IMG/VR virus record: IMGVR_UViG_3300036780_000056
Coordinates: 1 to 42,659 of that record
DNA: 42,659 bases
Reading direction: 5' to 3' (one strand)
Origin: a virus
Part shown: piece after piece, positions 4,499 to 40,755 of the stretch
Layout: each line of letters begins with the position of its first letter
How positions within the stretch are numbered: the stretch's first letter is position 1
Program-made: the position numbers and the translations under genes
Notes under the pieces: generated by a model
Seen by the model: the letters and a program-made list of their open reading frames with translations, nothing else
What the model was told of the DNA's origin: nothing
The model's database searches: none

Positions 4499-6157
4499 AT
4501 GCATAACCAGATCGATGTGGCGCGGATCGCGGAAGACGCGGCATACAGAGACGAGCTGCGATTGCGCGCGCAAACCGATCTTTTCTGGCTCACGAAGTAT
4601 GTGCTCGGCTACACCAAGGTCAGCGAACGATGGCACCGCCAGGTGGCCGACGTTTTCATTAAGAAGGATCCGAGCAGGCCGATCGAGGATCAGCACCGCA
4701 AACACAAACGCATGGTGCTCCTGCCACGCAAAACTTACAAAACCACATTCAACATCACCGACACGGTGCAGTGGATCATCGCTTTCCCCGAGGTCGCGGT
4801 GATGGCCATGACCGCCTCGAATTCTCCGGACTCGCCCCTGGCGGATGCATTCGTAGCCGAAGTGGCGAGCCACTTCTATTGCCCAGCCGGAATGCCCCAG
4901 ACCATCCTGCATCAGCTCTTCCCCGAGCATGTCATCACCAAACTGCAGCCCGCGGGCACCTTCATCACGCCGGCGCGCACCAAGTACCGCCGCGATCCAA
5001 CCTTGAAAGGTGTATCGATCGAGCAGAGCCTAAGCGGATGGCATCCCGACATTCTGAAAAGCGAGGACGTGCAGGACAATCGCAACTCGCAAACCGCCTT
5101 TGCGCTGCGCAAAGTGCGGCAAAACTTCTACATCAACCTGAAGATGATGGGCGAGCACGGCTTCTTAGATCTGACCGGGACGCGCTACGGGCCCATGGAT
5201 CTCTATGGCGACATGATTCAGAAGATGGATGACACCTGGGTCTATCTCTGGAGGCCGGCTTATATCCGCAAACCGCATGCTTTGAAGCTCGAAGACGATC
5301 AATTGACCGAGGATGACGTGATTCTGCAGTTCCCCGAGCAATTGTCCTGGAAGTTCTTGAGAAGTGAGAAGAACCTGGATGAAAACTCGTTCTGGACGCA
5401 ATATATGAACATCGCCGAAGGCAATTTCAAACCCACCTTCCCCATGGAGCGGCTGGAGGCTGCAAAAATATCTGACGACGACACGCCGGATAACGGACGT
5501 ATATACATTGCATGGCGTTTTGAATATGCCGAGTGCAAATATGCCGCCGCGGCCGTGGGCGCCGAAAAAGCCGGCCGCATGACGATCATGGAAGTGGTAC
5601 GGGACACCCTCACTCCCACCGCCTTGGCGCGCCGGGTCATTTCCCTAGCCAGAAAATGGGAGACGCACCGGATCCAGATCGAGGAAACCCCAGGCGCCCG
5701 ATCGATGGAGCAGCACATCCGCAACCAGGCCCTCGAGGATGCTTGGCGCATCGAGATCCAATGGGCGGAGTACCTGCAGGATCCCACCGCGCGCTCCCTG
5801 GCCATCAAGAGCGCCGAACCGCACCTGATTGCCGGCCGGCTGCTTTTCTCTGACGGGATCCAGAACGCGCAAGAGGTTTTCCGCCAGCTTTATCATTTCG
5901 GTATGGTCGAGGATCAGGAGATCGCCTCGGTCATCAGCCGCGTGGCAGCCAATTTGCCGGCATCGATCGCGGCCGAAGGCTTTGAGACGTCGGATGAGGA
6001 GGCCTGGCAGGCGCAGCTCGATCAGGACGCTTATAACCGGGTGTACAGTCGAGGGGAATACGCCGAGCGCGAGCCGGTGATGGAAGTTCAAGAGGAAGAA
6101 TGGGACCCGCCGAGCCATGATGATCTGAGCGAGGCGATGCCGGGGTTGAGCGGATGA
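4499..6157 (+). CDS. terL: Terminase large subunit
   Basis: A 552-aa protein, the usual size of phage large terminases. The ATPase shows an atypical Walker A, LLPRKTYKTT (residues about 74-83), as in T7-like and podoviral terminases, where the first Gly residues are replaced by Arg. An aromatic context follows, with WHPDILKSEDVQDNRNS (about 181-197) in the Walker B position. The C-terminal half, from about residue 340 (RIYIAWRFEYAE), would be the nuclease domain. The enzyme pumps DNA into the prohead through the portal and cuts it. It starts 6 bases after the His-rich gene and overlaps the next gene by 4. No small terminase is recognisable nearby; small zinc-ribbon or HTH proteins could fill that role. 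Confidence 0.85.
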   Translation: MHNQIDVARIAEDAAYRDELRLRAQTDLFWLTKYVLGYTKVSERWHRQVADVFIKKDPSRPIEDQHRKHKRMVLLPRKTYKTTFNITDTVQWIIAFPEVAVMAMTASNSPDSPLADAFVAEVASHFYCPAGMPQTILHQLFPEHVITKLQPAGTFITPARTKYRRDPTLKGVSIEQSLSGWHPDILKSEDVQDNRNSQTAFALRKVRQNFYINLKMMGEHGFLDLTGTRYGPMDLYGDMIQKMDDTWVYLWRPAYIRKPHALKLEDDQLTEDDVILQFPEQLSWKFLRSEKNLDENSFWTQYMNIAEGNFKPTFPMERLEAAKISDDDTPDNGRIYIAWRFEYAECKYAAAAVGAEKAGRMTIMEVVRDTLTPTALARRVISLARKWETHRIQIEETPGARSMEQHIRNQALEDAWRIEIQWAEYLQDPTARSLAIKSAEPHLIAGRLLFSDGIQNAQEVFRQLYHFGMVEDQEIASVISRVAANLPASIAAEGFETSDEEAWQAQLDQDAYNRVYSRGEYAEREPVMEVQEEEWDPPSHDDLSEAMPGLSG

Positions 6158-6597
6158 AATCAGAATTAGAGCTACTGCTTCGTTGGAAGTGTCACAAGAT
6201 CGTAAGAGCCGCCAAAATTCTCGAAGTGAAGTTGTCTCCCTCAGTTATGGACCCAGCGGAGATGCAATACGCGATGCTCGCATTGGAAGCGAAAGGAACG
6301 CCGATTTTCATTGGTGTTAACGCCGGATGGCTTGAACGATTTGATCCAAAGGCAGGCGGATACTTGGTGGTTTATGAAGACGGTTATCAATCATTCTCGT
6401 CCGCCAAGGCCTTCGAGGACGGATACGCGCTACTGATGCCCGATGAAGCAATCACCGTAAACTTCAAAAAAGTCATTCTCACCCCCGATGGCCAAATGAA
6501 GCAGCTCGAAGTTGCGCAACATCCCGAGGGATATGTGGCGCTAACTAAAGAGCAGGCTACGAGCCTGGCTCGGGAGATCATGCGGAGGTTTGCGTGA
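6154..6597 (+). CDS. Conserved phage protein of unknown function, 147 aa
   Basis: The ATG overlaps the terminase stop (ATGA), so it is translationally coupled. The protein is mixed alpha/beta (IFIGVNAGWLERFDP, YLVVYEDGYQSFSS) and ends in a helix with REIMRRFA. It has no Cys motif, membrane segment or signal peptide, and no family is recognised. It heads a run of four tightly overlapping small genes between terminase and portal. Confidence 0.7.
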   Translation: MKSELELLLRWKCHKIVRAAKILEVKLSPSVMDPAEMQYAMLALEAKGTPIFIGVNAGWLERFDPKAGGYLVVYEDGYQSFSSAKAFEDGYALLMPDEAITVNFKKVILTPDGQMKQLEVAQHPEGYVALTKEQATSLAREIMRRFA

Positions 6598-6836
6598 AAA
6601 TCACGATTGAGAGCACTGACGAGTTTGTTGAGATCGCTGCGGAGGATGCCACATCTGGCGTGCCGGCGCGGATCTGGCAGGGCGTGACCGAGGGCGGCGT
6701 CAAGGTGCAGATCCTGGTGACCCGCATCGCTGTATCACTCGATGACGATCAATCACAATTTGAGAAAGAGCTACGGGAGACGCCGGTGCCACGGGCGGAT
6801 TTGCCGCGGGTCTTTCCGCTGAGGATGATCCTATGA
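6594..6836 (+). CDS. Small conserved phage protein, 80 aa
   Basis: Starts with a GTGAAAATC overlap: the stop of the previous gene is shared with this start. The sequence is beta-rich (MKITIESTDEFVEI, PARIWQGVTEGGVKVQILVTRIAV), followed by a helix FEKELRE and a proline-rich tail ending FPLRMIL. From memory, proteins of this pattern recur in tailed phages of soil bacteria, without known function. It is coupled to the next gene by a 4-base overlap. Confidence 0.65.
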   Translation: MKITIESTDEFVEIAAEDATSGVPARIWQGVTEGGVKVQILVTRIAVSLDDDQSQFEKELRETPVPRADLPRVFPLRMIL

Positions 6837-7147
6837 TGCGGAAGTGTTCCCAATGCTGCATGACATACGACGATGCGGACAACACCACGATCTGCCCTCA
6901 CGAGCCGCTGCGATCGCCGGAGATCAAAGAGCAGTGGCTGCTCGGAAAAAGTCTTCTCGGTAAAACAATCCGGTTTCGCCACATGCCGCCAGGATCCGGC
7001 CACCGCTGCACTTCGCTTTATTTCGATGGAATGGTGGCCATCGAGGGATTACCGGGAGAGTTCGCGCCCCACCTCTTTATTGAAGACGAAGGCGAGATGC
7101 CAGGGGAGCACGCCACAAAGATTCCCCTCGAAGGGACGGTCAACTAA
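6833..7147 (+). CDS. Small zinc-ribbon-like protein
   Basis: A 104-aa protein. The N-terminus MMRKCSQCCMTYDDADNTTICPHE has CxxC and a later CPH, a compact zinc-ribbon knuckle; the rest is a mixed-fold domain (IRFRHMPPG, CTSLYFDGMVAIEGLPGEF). Starts by a 4-base overlap with the preceding gene and ends sharing its last base with the next start. Function unknown. Confidence 0.65.
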   Translation: MMRKCSQCCMTYDDADNTTICPHEPLRSPEIKEQWLLGKSLLGKTIRFRHMPPGSGHRCTSLYFDGMVAIEGLPGEFAPHLFIEDEGEMPGEHATKIPLEGTVN

Positions 7148-7368
7148 TGCCAGTCACCAAGGACAACCTAAAAGACGTTTTCACATACCACGCTCCCAAT
7201 GAGCTGCAGCAGGAACAATATGGCGCATTGCGTACAGCGGCTCATGATTTTGCATTAACTATCCTCGAAAACACGCCGACTTGCGCAGACCAGCAGGCCG
7301 CGATCCGCATGGTGCGCGAAGCGGTGATGACAGCTAACGCAGCGGTGGCACTCAACGGAAAGGTGTAA
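7147..7368 (+). CDS. Acb2/Tad1-family (Vs.4-like) hairpin protein, putative anti-CBASS/Thoeris sponge
   Basis: A 73-aa protein, the whole of which fits the Acb2/Tad1 hairpin pattern: VFTYHAP (11-17), Q21, Y25, LRTAAHDFA (28-36), ILENTP (39-44), then a second helix AIRMVREAVMTANAAVAL (52-69). Compare the known family features: an aromatic-Tyr-His-Pro start, a long helix with R-x-x-A-x-x-(F/L), and a second helix ending in EAVM-x-ANA(A/S)IA. Known family members (T4 Vs.4, Pseudomonas phage Acb2, Tad1) bind cyclic di-/trinucleotides or gcADPR and so block CBASS or Thoeris immunity. Here it lies between terminase and portal and starts on the last base of the upstream stop. Membership is read from sequence and memory; ligand and function are inference, since many relatives in phages are untested. 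Confidence 0.75.
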   Translation: MPVTKDNLKDVFTYHAPNELQQEQYGALRTAAHDFALTILENTPTCADQQAAIRMVREAVMTANAAVALNGKV

Positions 7369-7371
7369 CCC

Positions 7372-9516
7372 ATGGCGACGTTGGCGGGAGCAGTGAACGG
7401 GGCGGCGAACATCGAGGAGTCTGATGTAGAGCTGCAGGAGCCAGGACTGGATCCACGCTACACCGACGATGGCGCGGTGCAGCTGGTGATCCAGGATATG
7501 CAGCGCGCGAAAACCTACCTCGATCAGAAACAGTGGAACCTGCATTGGCGCGAGGCCGATGTACTCTACCAATCGCCGCGCACCAATCAGTCCTTCGAAG
7601 GATCCACGGTCGCCCGCGCCAACATCTCCCGCTTCACGGTCGCCAAGCATGTGAATTCGCTGGTACCGGCGATGAAGAGCGGCATCTTTTATGAGACTCC
7701 GCCTTTCCTGCTCAGGCCGAGGCCTGCAACCTCGCAAACCACGGCGCGCGCGAAGACGACGCTCTACGGGGCGCTGCTGGACGATTGTGATTTCGAGAGC
7801 GAATCAGAGTTGGCCCTCGAAGATATGACGAACTTCGGCAGCGTGATTGTGAAAGCCGGATGGACCACGGAGACTAAGACCAAAAAAGTGCGCAGCCCCA
7901 AGCAGGCACCCATCACACAGCAGCTTCCCTTCGGTGGCAAGCTGACCATCCACACCAAGGAATCAGATGAGCGGGTGGTCACCGATACCGAAGTCACAAC
8001 CGAGGGGCTTTTCTTTGAGCGCTGCGAGCTGGGCTCGGTGTTTGTGGATCCGACCTGGAAGAAACCGAACGCGCTGCATAAGTCAGCGAAGTACGTCATC
8101 CATCTCACCTATCCGACCTACAAAGACCTCGACCGAATGCGCGAGGAGAAGGTGCTTGATGAGGATGGCAAGCAAATCGGCGGTTACGACATACCGAGCG
8201 AAGAGGAGCTGAAGAATTACTTTTTTGCGCATCGAGACCAGAACGCCGCCAACCCCAGCCAGGTGATGCTCAACCTGGGCGGTCAGAACTACGCCATCCA
8301 TCATGCCCAGAACGATGATGAAGTGAGTTCGGCGGATCCGCTCGAAGCGCCGATCGCGATGATGGAGCGGACCGACCCGACCTATGTTTATGCGATCCTT
8401 ACCACCGACGGCATCAACGGCCTGCTGATCAAGAAGGAAGAGCACGGCTTCCCTTTCCTCAATTACTTTGCCGCAAACTTCTGGAACATTCCCAAAGCCG
8501 GCTATGGCATCGGTGTGGGCCGCCTGGCCGGAAGTGACCAGCGCATTGAAAAAGGTTTAGTGGACGCGGTACTTGACCTTTTGAGCATGGCCATCAATCC
8601 GATGTACGCGCGCGATCGCGGAGCCAATGCACCCACCCAGCAGATCCGGATGAGGCTGGGCGGAATCGTAGACGTAGACACCAAGCCAGGGCAGAGCGTG
8701 CGCGATGCATTCGGAATTATTGAGACCCCGAAAACCCCGCCCGAAGTGTTCAGCGTACTGCAAGCCGCGGCGCAGAACGCGCAATCGACCACAGGCGCAG
8801 ACGAAGCCTTCACTCAGGGCAGCCTGCCCGGCAAGGGCGGCAGCTCGGCCGCGCGCACTGCGACCGGCGCCGGCGGGATCATCGCTGCGAACGCCGGTAA
8901 AATTCAGGGGCCAGTGGGCCACTTTGTAAAAGGCATCCTGCTGCCCTTTATCCAGCTCATCGATTTCCTGGTGAAAGATCGCATGAGTCCATCGAAGATC
9001 CGCGAGATCCTGGGCCGCGAGCTGGGCGATGCCTTTGAGCTGGACGCGCAGAACTTCTACGAGTCGGAAGATATGTTCGATTGCCTGGCCGGCGCCAAAC
9101 TGGCAGCCAAGAAAGCCATGGCCCAGGCGCTGCCCCTCATGGTGCAGATCTTCGAGAATCAGCCGCTGGTGCAGCAGCTCAACGCGACCGGATATATGGT
9201 GGACGTGAAACTGCTGCTCGAGATGTTTATGGAAGTAAGCGAATGGAAGGATGCGCGCGAACTGATCCGGCCGATGACGCCCCAGGAGCAGCAGAAGTAC
9301 GCGCAAAATAACCCGGGCCTGCAGCGCGTGCAGGGACAGATTGCGGCGATCGGCGCCCGCCACAACGCCAAGAGCGCGGAAATTGACCAGAGCAAGGAAG
9401 CGGACCTGGCCAAGGACCTGATGGGCAAGGCCTCCGACGAGGCGGCGCTATGGGATGAGCGCAAATGGGACCGGACCGCGATCGAACAAAGCGAGTTTGC
9501 GCCGGCAGGAGGTTGA
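7372..9516 (+). CDS. Portal protein
   Basis: A 714-aa protein, the size of podoviral head-tail connector portals. The N-terminal third is acidic alpha/beta with the sequence FTVAKHVNSLVPAMKSGIFYETPPF, as in portals that begin by loading onto the DNA-entry vertex. The central part has GIGVGRLAGSDQRIEKGLVDAVLDLLSMAINPMY, the long helix and wing region. The C-terminus is a helical barrel with Gln and Ala (AAIGARHNAKSAEIDQSKEADLAKDLM). Identification rests on size, composition and position directly after terminase and before scaffold and capsid genes. It would form the dodecameric ring through which DNA enters and leaves. Confidence 0.8.
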   Translation: MATLAGAVNGAANIEESDVELQEPGLDPRYTDDGAVQLVIQDMQRAKTYLDQKQWNLHWREADVLYQSPRTNQSFEGSTVARANISRFTVAKHVNSLVPAMKSGIFYETPPFLLRPRPATSQTTARAKTTLYGALLDDCDFESESELALEDMTNFGSVIVKAGWTTETKTKKVRSPKQAPITQQLPFGGKLTIHTKESDERVVTDTEVTTEGLFFERCELGSVFVDPTWKKPNALHKSAKYVIHLTYPTYKDLDRMREEKVLDEDGKQIGGYDIPSEEELKNYFFAHRDQNAANPSQVMLNLGGQNYAIHHAQNDDEVSSADPLEAPIAMMERTDPTYVYAILTTDGINGLLIKKEEHGFPFLNYFAANFWNIPKAGYGIGVGRLAGSDQRIEKGLVDAVLDLLSMAINPMYARDRGANAPTQQIRMRLGGIVDVDTKPGQSVRDAFGIIETPKTPPEVFSVLQAAAQNAQSTTGADEAFTQGSLPGKGGSSAARTATGAGGIIAANAGKIQGPVGHFVKGILLPFIQLIDFLVKDRMSPSKIREILGRELGDAFELDAQNFYESEDMFDCLAGAKLAAKKAMAQALPLMVQIFENQPLVQQLNATGYMVDVKLLLEMFMEVSEWKDARELIRPMTPQEQQKYAQNNPGLQRVQGQIAAIGARHNAKSAEIDQSKEADLAKDLMGKASDEAALWDERKWDRTAIEQSEFAPAGG

Positions 9517-11760: not shown

Positions 11761-12933
11761 ATGATTTCGATTCGCAGGGATGAGACATTCCTTCGGCGGA
11801 GAAACTGGCTTGTAAATAACATTCTGCGGCCGGTGCTCTATGTGTTGGCGATGTGGGGATCAGCCATCGCCTTCTTGATCCAGGAACAAGGCAACGCCTT
11901 GGCCACCCAGACCCAGCTCGGCGCCGGCTACTCGCCGGCCTCGAACAACACCTCGAACCTCACCCAGACCCAGGTTAATTACTACGACAAAAACTTTGTC
12001 GAAAACCTGAAGGCCGAAACGCCCCACTACCGATGCGTGGAGCGCAGGCCTCTGCCCGAGAACAGCGGCAACACTCTCAACCTTTTTGAATATGTGGCGT
12101 TTGGTCCGGACCTGGCCCAGGCCCCAGAGGGCACCGTAACCGCCGGCGAGACGATCAACATCCTCACCGACAAGATTGTGATCGGCAACTATGCCGATTA
12201 CCTCAACTATTCGCGCTTCTCGATGCAGCTGGCGATCGACCCCGCGCTTGAAAACGGCGGCAAGGAGCTAGCCTACCAGTGCGCGCAGACCGTGGCTTAC
12301 CTGATCAAGAACACCACCGACGGGCTGAACGTGATTGACGCGAGCGTAAGCGTGCAGAACGCTTTCAACGTGCCCTTCAACAAAAACAACATCACCTCGG
12401 CAGTGGCCTCGCTGCGCGGGCGCAACGTGAAGCCTATGGAAGAGGGAAAGTTTTGCGGGCTGATTACTCCCTTTGCCTGGGGCGATGCGCTGAACGACGC
12501 GGCCAACAATTCGTTCACCGACATTCTGAAGCGGCACATGGAAGGCGTGGACTTGTTGAAGGAGCTGCCCGGCGGCGAGGGCGAGTATGTAGAAGCCCTG
12601 GAATGGGCCGGCGTGCGGTTCTACGAAACCACCATCGTTAAGCAGACCTTGAACTATCTGGGGAATGCCGGCGTGACCGCCTTCCGCACCTACATCTACG
12701 GCAAGGATGCGGTGATCAGCATCAGCATGGGCGCGAAGGAAATGACCGAGCTGGGTGATGGCGACTGGCGGAACCTGAAAGTGATCACCAAGCGCTACGA
12801 CGATGCCAGCGTGTCGGACCCGGCGATGATGATCGGCGGGTCGACAGCCTACAACTTCAACTTTGCGGTGGGAGTGGTGCCGGACACGGTGGGACGCGCG
12901 CGCTACATCGACGCCCCAACTCTCATCAGCTAA
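11761..12933 (+). CDS. N4-gp56-family major capsid protein with hydrophobic N-terminal leader
   Basis: A 390-aa protein. From about residue 70 it follows the N4 gp56 capsid pattern: YYDKNFVENLKAETPHY, RRPLPENSGNTLNLFEY, EGTVTAGETINI, then YADYLNYSRFSMQLAIDPAL and a long alpha/beta body ending in a receptor-like FAVGVVPDTVGRARYIDAP. It would form the capsid shell. Oddly, residues 1-48 form a basic stretch, a hydrophobic helix (about 24-40, VLYVLAMWGSAIAFLI) and then ALA at 46-48, a signal-peptidase-like site. The usual start would be near residue 45. The ATG at 11761 has GGGAG 7 bases upstream, and no better internal start is seen. The leader may be removed or is a start misassignment. Confidence 0.85.
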   Translation: MISIRRDETFLRRRNWLVNNILRPVLYVLAMWGSAIAFLIQEQGNALATQTQLGAGYSPASNNTSNLTQTQVNYYDKNFVENLKAETPHYRCVERRPLPENSGNTLNLFEYVAFGPDLAQAPEGTVTAGETINILTDKIVIGNYADYLNYSRFSMQLAIDPALENGGKELAYQCAQTVAYLIKNTTDGLNVIDASVSVQNAFNVPFNKNNITSAVASLRGRNVKPMEEGKFCGLITPFAWGDALNDAANNSFTDILKRHMEGVDLLKELPGGEGEYVEALEWAGVRFYETTIVKQTLNYLGNAGVTAFRTYIYGKDAVISISMGAKEMTELGDGDWRNLKVITKRYDDASVSDPAMMIGGSTAYNFNFAVGVVPDTVGRARYIDAPTLIS

Positions 12934-35734: not shown

Positions 35735-35891
35735 TGTAGTGATCTGGGGCACTATACCTGATTGCTTGGAGATCGAAGCTGCGGATAAGAATGAAGCGAT
35801 AGAGAAGGCTATCCAGGAGGTCCTGGAAAAGTTGAGCTTCGATGCGAGGCCCACGAAAAAGGGCGCGCCATGGACGGGGAAGGGGTCATAA
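35721..35891 (+). CDS. Small protein, 56 aa
   Basis: AAAGGAACC lies 6 bases upstream of the ATG at 35721, inside the preceding gene. Sequence MRKFDVVIWGTIPDCLEIEA then ADKNEAIEKAIQEVLEKL is a beta strand plus helices with a basic tail. The stop shares a base with the next start (TAATG). Function unknown, but ribosome-binding site and coupling support expression. Confidence 0.5.
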   Translation: MRKFDVVIWGTIPDCLEIEAADKNEAIEKAIQEVLEKLSFDARPTKKGAPWTGKGS

Positions 35892-36505
35892 TGCCAGCTC
35901 ACAAAACGATTGATGTAACCGAAGAGACGAAACTGCGCTGGCCGGACGGCATTGATCGGACGCGCATCAAGGACCGCAAACGGCAACCGGCATGGAAGCA
36001 AAGCCGCACAGAATACTTCAAGGCGCTAGTGGAGGAGTTGGGGCGCATGAAAGCAGCTTCCATTCTCATCAGCCGCCACGAAAGCGAGCAGCTGGATCCT
36101 GGAGTGGCAGTGTGGTTTTCACTGAAGACGGAAGACTTTTCCTGGCAGCAGATTTTAGGCCTCGATAACCCGGCGCCCACGATGGCTGAGATTGATGAGG
36201 TATTTCGCGATCGCGCGCGCAAATGTCACCCCGACTCACCAGACGGCGGGGATCCGGCTCTATTCAAAAAACTGAACGAAGCGCGCATTCAAGCCAAAGC
36301 CTGGATTACGGGGACACATGGCCACCGCCACGAATATGTAATGGCTATTGACCAGTACAACGAGGCACGGCTGAATATGCAGGCGCTGAAACTGGCGTTC
36401 ACCTATATCCGCGGCCTTCAGCGAGTTGGAGCGCCGGCGATTCTTTCGCAGACCCTGGGCGCATTTCGCGCGAAGTTGACGGCCGCCAGCGGAGGCGCCG
36501 CATGA
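35891..36505 (+). CDS. J-domain (DnaJ-like) phage protein
   Basis: A 204-aa protein starting at the ATG at 35891, with GGGAAGGGG just upstream; an ATG at 35870 is an alternative. Residues about 83-138 form a J-domain: FSWQQILGLDNPAPTMAEID, a helix EVFRDRARKC, then the HPD motif (113-115, CHPDSPDGGDPALFKKLNEA). J-domains recruit and stimulate DnaK; the phage protein could steer host DnaK onto a replication complex, as lambda uses DnaJ/DnaK. The N-terminal half is basic. It is coupled by overlap to the winged-helix gene and lies three genes before the helicase loader cluster. Confidence 0.75.
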   Translation: MPAHKTIDVTEETKLRWPDGIDRTRIKDRKRQPAWKQSRTEYFKALVEELGRMKAASILISRHESEQLDPGVAVWFSLKTEDFSWQQILGLDNPAPTMAEIDEVFRDRARKCHPDSPDGGDPALFKKLNEARIQAKAWITGTHGHRHEYVMAIDQYNEARLNMQALKLAFTYIRGLQRVGAPAILSQTLGAFRAKLTAASGGAA

Positions 36506-39684: not shown

Positions 39685-39918
39685 CTATTGCCCCTCGCTC
39701 GCCAGGCGATCGCCGAGCACGGAGGTGACAAAGCCGGTACGACTGAGCCCACGCACCACGGCGGCGGCGTCGACGCGCTTGAGAAACGCGCGATCGAGGT
39801 TGATGAGCACCGGCACCAGGTCGCGGCCGGCGCCGTTCGTGGATCCCGCTATAAATTTGCTGGCCTTGCGATCGGCTTTGACATCAGACTTCTTTTTCGG
39901 ATTGCGTGCAATCGTCAT
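39685..39918 (-). CDS. RHH partition partner (ParG-like)
   Basis: A 77-aa protein beginning inside the parA gene (35-base overlap). An N-terminal 35-residue basic tail (MTIARNPKKKSDVKADRKAS) precedes a ribbon-helix-helix domain: a strand VPVLINLDRAF, a helix LKRVDAAAVVR, and a helix SRTGFVTSVLGDRLAS. Size, flexible basic tail and position after parA match the ParG class of centromere-binding proteins of type Ib partition systems. ParG-like proteins bind a parS/operator and repress the operon. The call rests on architecture; sequence identity to ParG is not claimed. Confidence 0.7.
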   Translation of the reverse strand: MTIARNPKKKSDVKADRKASKFIAGSTNGAGRDLVPVLINLDRAFLKRVDAAAVVRGLSRTGFVTSVLGDRLASEGQ

Positions 39919-40576
39919 AGTTTCCTTTCCAGTTTCTTTGAGGTTCAAAGAGAAAATCGAGCAGCTGGTTAAACTCAAGGCCGGCCTGATTGTGCGCGGG
40001 CAGCTCAACCACGCCCAGGCCCTGTGCTGCAGCGTCTGGGTAGGCCTTGCGGCGCACCAGGCGATACGGCATAGCTACAATGCCCTGCAGTTGCTCCAGC
40101 TCAGCCTGGGCCTCGAGATTGTCACGGCCGCGCGGATCCGCACCATTGAGGACGGCCGCGGCGTTGAGATTGGCGTTGATTTCGCGCGCCTCGAGCACCA
40201 GATCGGCGGTCTGGCCGACGCCCCACAGATCGAACGAGCGCGGCGCGGTGGGAATAAGCACCCAGTTCGAGACGGTGAGCGCGGCGCGCAGAGAGCCGGA
40301 ATCGCGCCCGCCCACATCGATCAGGATGTGATCGTATTTGGATTGCAGCTGGCGCACCTGGGTGCGTATAGCGGCGCCGTGGAGAGCAACCGCGGTATAA
40401 CCGGCGCCACCAGGCCGGCGCGCGCTCCTCAGCTCTGTAAAGGCCATGGCAGTGCCTTGCTCATCGCCGTCGATCAGAAGAACGTCGGCGCCGTCCAGGG
40501 CAAGAGCGATGGTCAGATTGATGGCGAGAGTGGTTTTGCCGACCCCGCCTTTGGTGTTACCTACCGTGAGAATCAT
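39884..40576 (-). CDS. parA: ParA-type partition ATPase (ParF-like)
   Basis: A 230-aa protein starting at the ATG at 40576. Deviant Walker A is KGGVGKTT (9-16), with Walker A' LLIDGDEQG, and Walker B HILIDVGG. MILTVGNTKGGVGKTTLAIN and SNWVLIPTAPRSFDLWGV are typical of the short ParA subgroup without an N-terminal HTH, which partners small RHH proteins (ParF/ParG). It would move replicated copies of the element to daughter cells, i.e. it suits a plasmid-like state. A longer reading frame to 40729 would run over the promoter and repeats and is rejected. The ribosome-binding site GGAGG lies in a hairpin (40580-40603). Confidence 0.85.
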   Translation of the reverse strand: MILTVGNTKGGVGKTTLAINLTIALALDGADVLLIDGDEQGTAMAFTELRSARRPGGAGYTAVALHGAAIRTQVRQLQSKYDHILIDVGGRDSGSLRAALTVSNWVLIPTAPRSFDLWGVGQTADLVLEAREINANLNAAAVLNGADPRGRDNLEAQAELEQLQGIVAMPYRLVRRKAYPDAAAQGLGVVELPAHNQAGLEFNQLLDFLFEPQRNWKGNYDDCTQSEKEV

Positions 40577-40579
40577 CAA

Positions 40580-40603
40580 GCGGATCCCTCCGATCGGATC
40601 CGC
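40580..40603 (-). promoter_or_regulatory. Hairpin that would sequester the parA ribosome-binding site
   Basis: GCGGATCC (40580-40587) and GGATCCGC (40596-40603) form a perfect 8-bp inverted repeat around 8 bases. On the minus strand the loop and stem contain GGAG(G), the parA ribosome-binding site, 3 to 8 bases before the ATG at 40576. This suggests translational control of parA. Confidence 0.6.
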
Positions 40604-40607
40604 CTTA

Positions 40608-40636
40608 TATATAGCAGCGCGGCGGGATATATACAA
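40608..40636 (-). promoter_or_regulatory. parA promoter, sigma-70 type
   Basis: On the minus strand TTGTAT (40636-40631), a 17-base spacer and TATATA (40613-40608). The predicted transcript starts near 40601, at the edge of the hairpin covering the parA ribosome-binding site. Confidence 0.65.
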
Positions 40637-40664
40637 GAGATATACGGCGCATAGGAATATGGGC

Positions 40665-40688
40665 GTAATAATGTAATTACGTAATAAC
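40665..40688. repeat. Three tandem 8-bp repeats, GTAAT(A/T)A(T/C)
   Basis: GTAATAAT, GTAATTAC and GTAATAAC follow one another without gaps at 40665-40672, 40673-40680 and 40681-40688, 29 bases upstream of the parA -35 box. RHH partition proteins commonly bind short tandem repeats next to the par promoter, so this is a candidate operator/centromere. Confidence 0.6.
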
Positions 40689-40727
40689 AAAAATCGGCCG
40701 GCATCCGCTGCGATGTGGATGCCGGCC
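40689..40727 (-). terminator. Intrinsic terminator of the leftward right-end operon
   Basis: GGCCGGCATCC (40696-40706) and GGATGCCGGCC (40717-40727) are a perfect 11-bp stem with a 10-base loop. On the minus strand the stem is followed by GATTTTTG. It lies after the gene ending at 40756. Confidence 0.85.
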
Positions 40728-40755
40728 AAACCTTGGTTTACTGATTAGCTCAACA

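Follow-up and report, generated by a model that had tools for sequence, protein, structure and literature searches.

A probable Acb2-type cyclic-nucleotide sponge encoded between the terminase and portal genes of a phage

We identified a 73-aa protein in a viral genome (IMG/VR record IMGVR_UViG_3300036780_000056; the window is the whole 42,659-nt stretch analysed) that is probably an Acb2-type oligomeric sponge trapping cyclic-nucleotide defence signals. The predicted fold is a short helix followed by a hairpin of two helices and, by analogy with the Acb2 members of its family, the protein would assemble into an oligomer. It would then trap the cyclic nucleotides with which CBASS- or Thoeris-like defences raise the alarm, and the effector would be stopped from killing the cell ahead of progeny release. 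The gene lies in a cluster of head genes comprising:

4499 to 6157, + strand: terminase large subunit (phrog_38, 2.5e-28), upstream border of the cargo interval
6154 to 6597, + strand: 147-aa gene with an N-terminal Dec-like OB domain (profile and fold match)
6594 to 6836, + strand: 80-aa gene, present between terminase and portal in many relatives but not in all
6833 to 7147, + strand: 104-aa gene whose stop codon overlaps the start of the sponge gene; only 2 of the 41 portal relatives have it
7147 to 7368, + strand: putative Acb2-type sponge gene, 73 aa (PF24729 match, AlphaFold2 model)
7372 to 9516, + strand: portal protein (phrog_1216, SU10_portal), downstream border
11761 to 12933, + strand: major head protein (phrog_1357, 5.5e-12), same gene cluster

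The initial annotation described a complete 73-aa reading frame between terminase and portal. The ATG at 7147, the TAA stop at 7366-7368 and the translation bear this out, and the flanking phrog_38 and phrog_1216 genes confirm the position, which recurs in relatives. The profile search proposed there as a check gave a significant family match: PF24729 (Acb2_Tad1_hairpin), the one Pfam-A family matched by the protein, aligned over profile positions 1-57 of 58 with E=6.6e-9 and 36.3 bits, above the curated Pfam cut-off of 27 bits. A six-frame search of the whole record with PF24729 recovered the sponge ORF at 4.1e-10, and the same search of 14 control genomes gave no match. T4 Acb2 is also matched by PF24729 (E=7.1e-20), with the same profile start. 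In PHROGs the protein falls into families annotated as 'unknown function', and NCBIfam and PADLOC scans returned nothing significant. The T4 and PaMx33 Acb2 sequences are too distant from the protein for direct detection: pairwise alignments are weak (5% of shuffles score as well for T4, 63% for PaMx33 and 1.6% for Jess A), and, when aligned globally, PaMx33 Acb2 scores no higher than shuffles do. Sequence searches of the PDB (phmmer and profile) matched no Acb2 or Tad1 chain, so that the Acb2 case rests on the Pfam profile and the predicted fold.

Homologues of the sponge were found at 28 loci in viral contigs (43-78% identity), and in an alignment of 23 sponge relatives residues F12, Y14, A52, M61 and T62 are invariant. 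Between this phage and its relatives dN/dS is about 0.06-0.2, similar to portal and terminase; with dS near saturation the figures are rough, and they suggest purifying selection. That the ORF is a non-functional passenger or a chance match is extremely improbable. The gene is small and often gained and lost, and some relatives look degenerate, but the portal-like dN/dS, the significant Pfam match and the conservation across 23 sequences all argue against it.

The AlphaFold2 monomer model, built with the 23-sequence alignment as input, has a pLDDT of 92 and places helices at 5-11, 19-42 and 47-68. The predicted architecture is thus a short N-terminal helix and two long antiparallel helices with no beta-domain, the helix order described for Acb2 (PMC12043709). 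In a PDB fold search the T4 Acb2 chains (7uq2) ranked 1 to 3 of 37 matches, with a TM-score of about 0.6, a probability of 0.69 and a non-significant E=1.8. A helical hairpin is a simple fold, which counts against the sponge reading. Tad1 shares the hairpin domain in Pfam but carries an N-terminal four-stranded beta-sheet (PMC12043709), whereas the 73-aa protein is predicted to be all-helical and has only 12 residues ahead of the hairpin domain. Because the model holds no beta-sheet, its architecture is that of Acb2 rather than Tad1; the earlier assignment to the Acb2/Tad1 hairpin family therefore holds for the family as a whole and, by predicted topology, for its Acb2 side, and not for Tad1.

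Acb2 of T4 (Vs.4, 7uq2) and of the PaMx33 type (p26, 8h2j and others) share the Pfam family with the protein, and also the short N-terminal helix with antiparallel hairpin, the tyrosine of the pocket and, 15 residues further on, a basic side chain. Y14 here and Y8 in T4 occupy the same PF24729 position, both proteins entering the profile one residue before the tyrosine, and Y14 is kept in 23 of 23 sampled relatives. Fifteen positions past the tyrosine stands R29, where T4 (K23), PaMx33 and Jess A have lysine; in PaMx33 we take this lysine to contact the ligand. Binding of cyclic dinucleotides by T4 Acb2 is disrupted by Y8A and diminished by F82C, a T4 escape mutation (PMC12657218). F82 of T4 is replaced by A68 here, and PaMx33 also has alanine at the aligned place. 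From these alignments Y14, R29 and A68 are candidate pocket residues. The known proteins differ in length (88-94 aa with a long hairpin-tip insert, as compared to 73 aa with no insert). Acb2 itself forms a hexamer in which dinucleotides and trinucleotides occupy different sites; it binds cyclic nucleotides, can let them go again and shields the phage from CBASS.

Three portal-linked homologues (L131:2654-2854, L136:3646-3840 and L137:7148-7360) keep the [KR]DNLHELF start and have lost the YH motif of the pocket; therefore not all members can bind in the manner of Acb2. Losing the motif may mean that these homologues bind another ligand, are decaying or serve a structural role, or that they evade Panoptes, a defence switched on by Acb2 and proposed as the force that selected a pocket mutation in phage T2 (PMC12657218).

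Each gene from terminase to sponge begins a few bases before the preceding one ends, and the portal gene begins 3 bp past the sponge stop. A promoter scan, which neither proves nor excludes an internal promoter, found fewer promoter-like sites than in shuffles and none better than chance between terminase and portal. Since the codons overlap or touch and no site is better than chance, it is a fair inference that the sponge is expressed together with the virion genes. The sponge would then be delivered as head proteins appear, when several such defences fire: Thoeris responds to a staphylococcal major head protein, and a CBASS cyclase to a prohead protease (PMC11312562; PMC12409349). Elsewhere in the window, a 211-aa protein at 35870-36505 contains a J-domain-like stretch (PF00226, E=3.9e-5, just below the Pfam cut-off) and is possibly a phage-encoded DnaJ co-chaperone, and a ParA-like ATPase at 39884-40729 on the minus strand, at the record end (AAA_31, 5.8e-20), may be a sign of maintenance in the manner of a plasmid. 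Scanning the 42,659-nt window for Rfam families and tRNAs gave nothing.

We searched for relatives by portal and obtained 41, which form 37 distinct rows in the portal tree. Of the 41, 13 carry a sponge homologue on one side of the portal or the other: seven in the terminase-portal interval (L116, L117, L127, L133, L134, L145, L155), five no more than about 60 bp beyond the 3' end of the portal gene (L131, L137, L140, L148, L152) and one 1.3 kb beyond it (L136). When whole records were searched with PF24729, nine exceeded the cut-off with one match each. On the portal tree 13 of 37 rows have a sponge (this phage included), and presence changes at least 7 times. In some sponge-less relatives the terminase-portal gap is down to 0-30 bp. 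Resolution of the sponge tree is poor, but it places L148 and L152 with sponges outside the main set, suggesting that the gene was acquired more than once. Such repeated gain or loss beside the portal is as expected of anti-defence cargo.

The association extends to unrelated phages. The order is terminase-portal-sponge in L003; in L024 the sponge and the end of a terminase gene overlap, and the portal lies downstream; in L021 it sits just ahead of the terminase; and in Gordonia phages it overlaps the end of the portal gene. A strict linkage of this branch to head genes is ruled out by copies next to DNA polymerase (L012) and thymidylate synthase (L008): linkage is frequent, not universal. The validated acb2 genes, unlike the one in the head cluster here, are outside head-gene blocks, that of PaMx41 at the end of the replication block, where a terminator separates it from structural genes on the other strand, and vs.4 of T4 in the vs/regB cluster. 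We found no description of a recurrent portal-side sponge slot in the literature, of which our coverage was partial.

This recurrence next to the portal would also be expected if the protein were a head-assembly or virion accessory factor, a structural component with a borrowed sponge fold. The persistence of some portal-linked homologues despite a lost pocket tyrosine points the same way, as does the resemblance of the neighbouring gene at 6154-6597 to a capsid decoration protein. We consider this reading unlikely: at least 24 of the 37 distinct portal relatives, among them L118 with an 88%-identical portal, have no detectable sponge copy, so the sponge is not needed for head building, and the same branch occurs among replication genes in L012 and L008. 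It is less probable still that the sponge fold binds a housekeeping nucleotide such as c-di-AMP or c-di-GMP and reprograms the host instead of blocking defence. Acb2 homologues do accept many different cyclic dinucleotides (PMC12043709), but the characterised family members all act against defence signalling (PMC12043709, PMC12657218), and patchy gain and loss is a better fit to defence cargo than to a housekeeping-nucleotide binder. An Acb2-type sponge directed at defence signals thus stays our preferred explanation.

The gene at 6154-6597, 703 bp from the sponge, encodes a domain with the motif GGYxVxYxDGYxSFSPAxAFExGY. The top match of its profile in the PDB is Dec of phage L (6e3c, E=0.0094), and Dec is also the best of 630 fold matches to its AlphaFold model (pLDDT 84; E=9.7e-4, probability 1.00). 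The model has the OB topology described for Dec (PMC6449081): beta0, beta1-3, alpha, beta4-5 and alpha, with a helix between beta3 and beta4. Dec of phage L, which decorates capsids as a trimer, has its own C-terminal trimeric beta-spike, which is absent here; in relatives, sponge or other domains take that place. An OB gene lies within 1 kb of a sponge in several unrelated phages, and OB homologues are found as separate genes no more than 170 bp from the sponge in L001, L004, L014 and L021.

Fusions of the two were also found. In L098 (2399-2932) the OB domain is fused to a sponge of the same branch as that of the window, and in gp16 of Caulobacter phage Jess A to a PF24729 domain (E=4.5e-17); a sequence comparison links gp16 to solved Acb2 chains (E=0.002). 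Other partners are the Tad2-like PF11195, in Punavirus proteins (1.6e-22) and in L094 (2474-3028) and L095, and crAss001_48, in Klebsiella phages. This short domain (PF21825) stands at the C-terminus of L070:2486-3361 and L071:2486-3010, the sponge's place in other phages, and L075:2001-2567 and L078:1483-2160 also encode Dec-like OB fusion proteins. From these fusions the Dec-like OB domain is possibly a shared module of anti-defence proteins. The tallies are small, from samples partly conditioned on either gene, and an obligate pairing is ruled out: most OB-domain records have no PF24729 match and most sponge records have no OB domain. The Dec-like OB is a promiscuous phage domain whose link to sponges is marked, not exclusive. 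The literature that we covered, in part, held no description of the association.

A more speculative possibility, to which we give a small chance, is a modular anti-defence cassette in which the Dec-like OB domain is paired, as neighbour or fusion, with unrelated sponges (Acb2-type or Tad2-like) and in head operons anchors the sponge to nascent capsids or joins copies of it there. If so, signals would be intercepted at the site where capsid-triggered defences go off.

Among annotated phages just one has a similar portal (36%), and it infects Tunturiibacter; the best annotated sponge relative (58%) is from another Tunturiibacter phage. These matches make a soil host among the acidobacteria likely; the prophage relatives from bacterial genomes were limited to two MAG contigs, uninformative on host. 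Several public annotations look wrong, in Paenibacillus phages (H30-H34, H50-H54), Pseudomonas phages (H129, H144) and at L084:1486-2076; among them are sponge homologues labelled phosphomannomutase or NAD/FAD-utilizing enzyme and a Dec-like-domain protein labelled portal protein. The 73-aa protein joins a known family, and Acb2 is already annotated by homology in other soil-environment phages, such as the actinophage Statler of Microbacterium, for whose putative Acb2 head-operon linkage is not described (PMC13348362).

If the sponge reading is right, the early genes are not the only place for anti-signalling sponges, and a soil-phage lineage, probably of Acidobacteriota, repeatedly loads a sponge beside the portal, where its dose would rise alongside the head proteins that trigger some defences. 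The OB partner raises the question of what this domain does: whether it offers another binding site, helps assembly or acts as a tether to the capsid. Together, the portal-side slot and the OB partner offer a handle for finding anti-defence genes by position and fusion.
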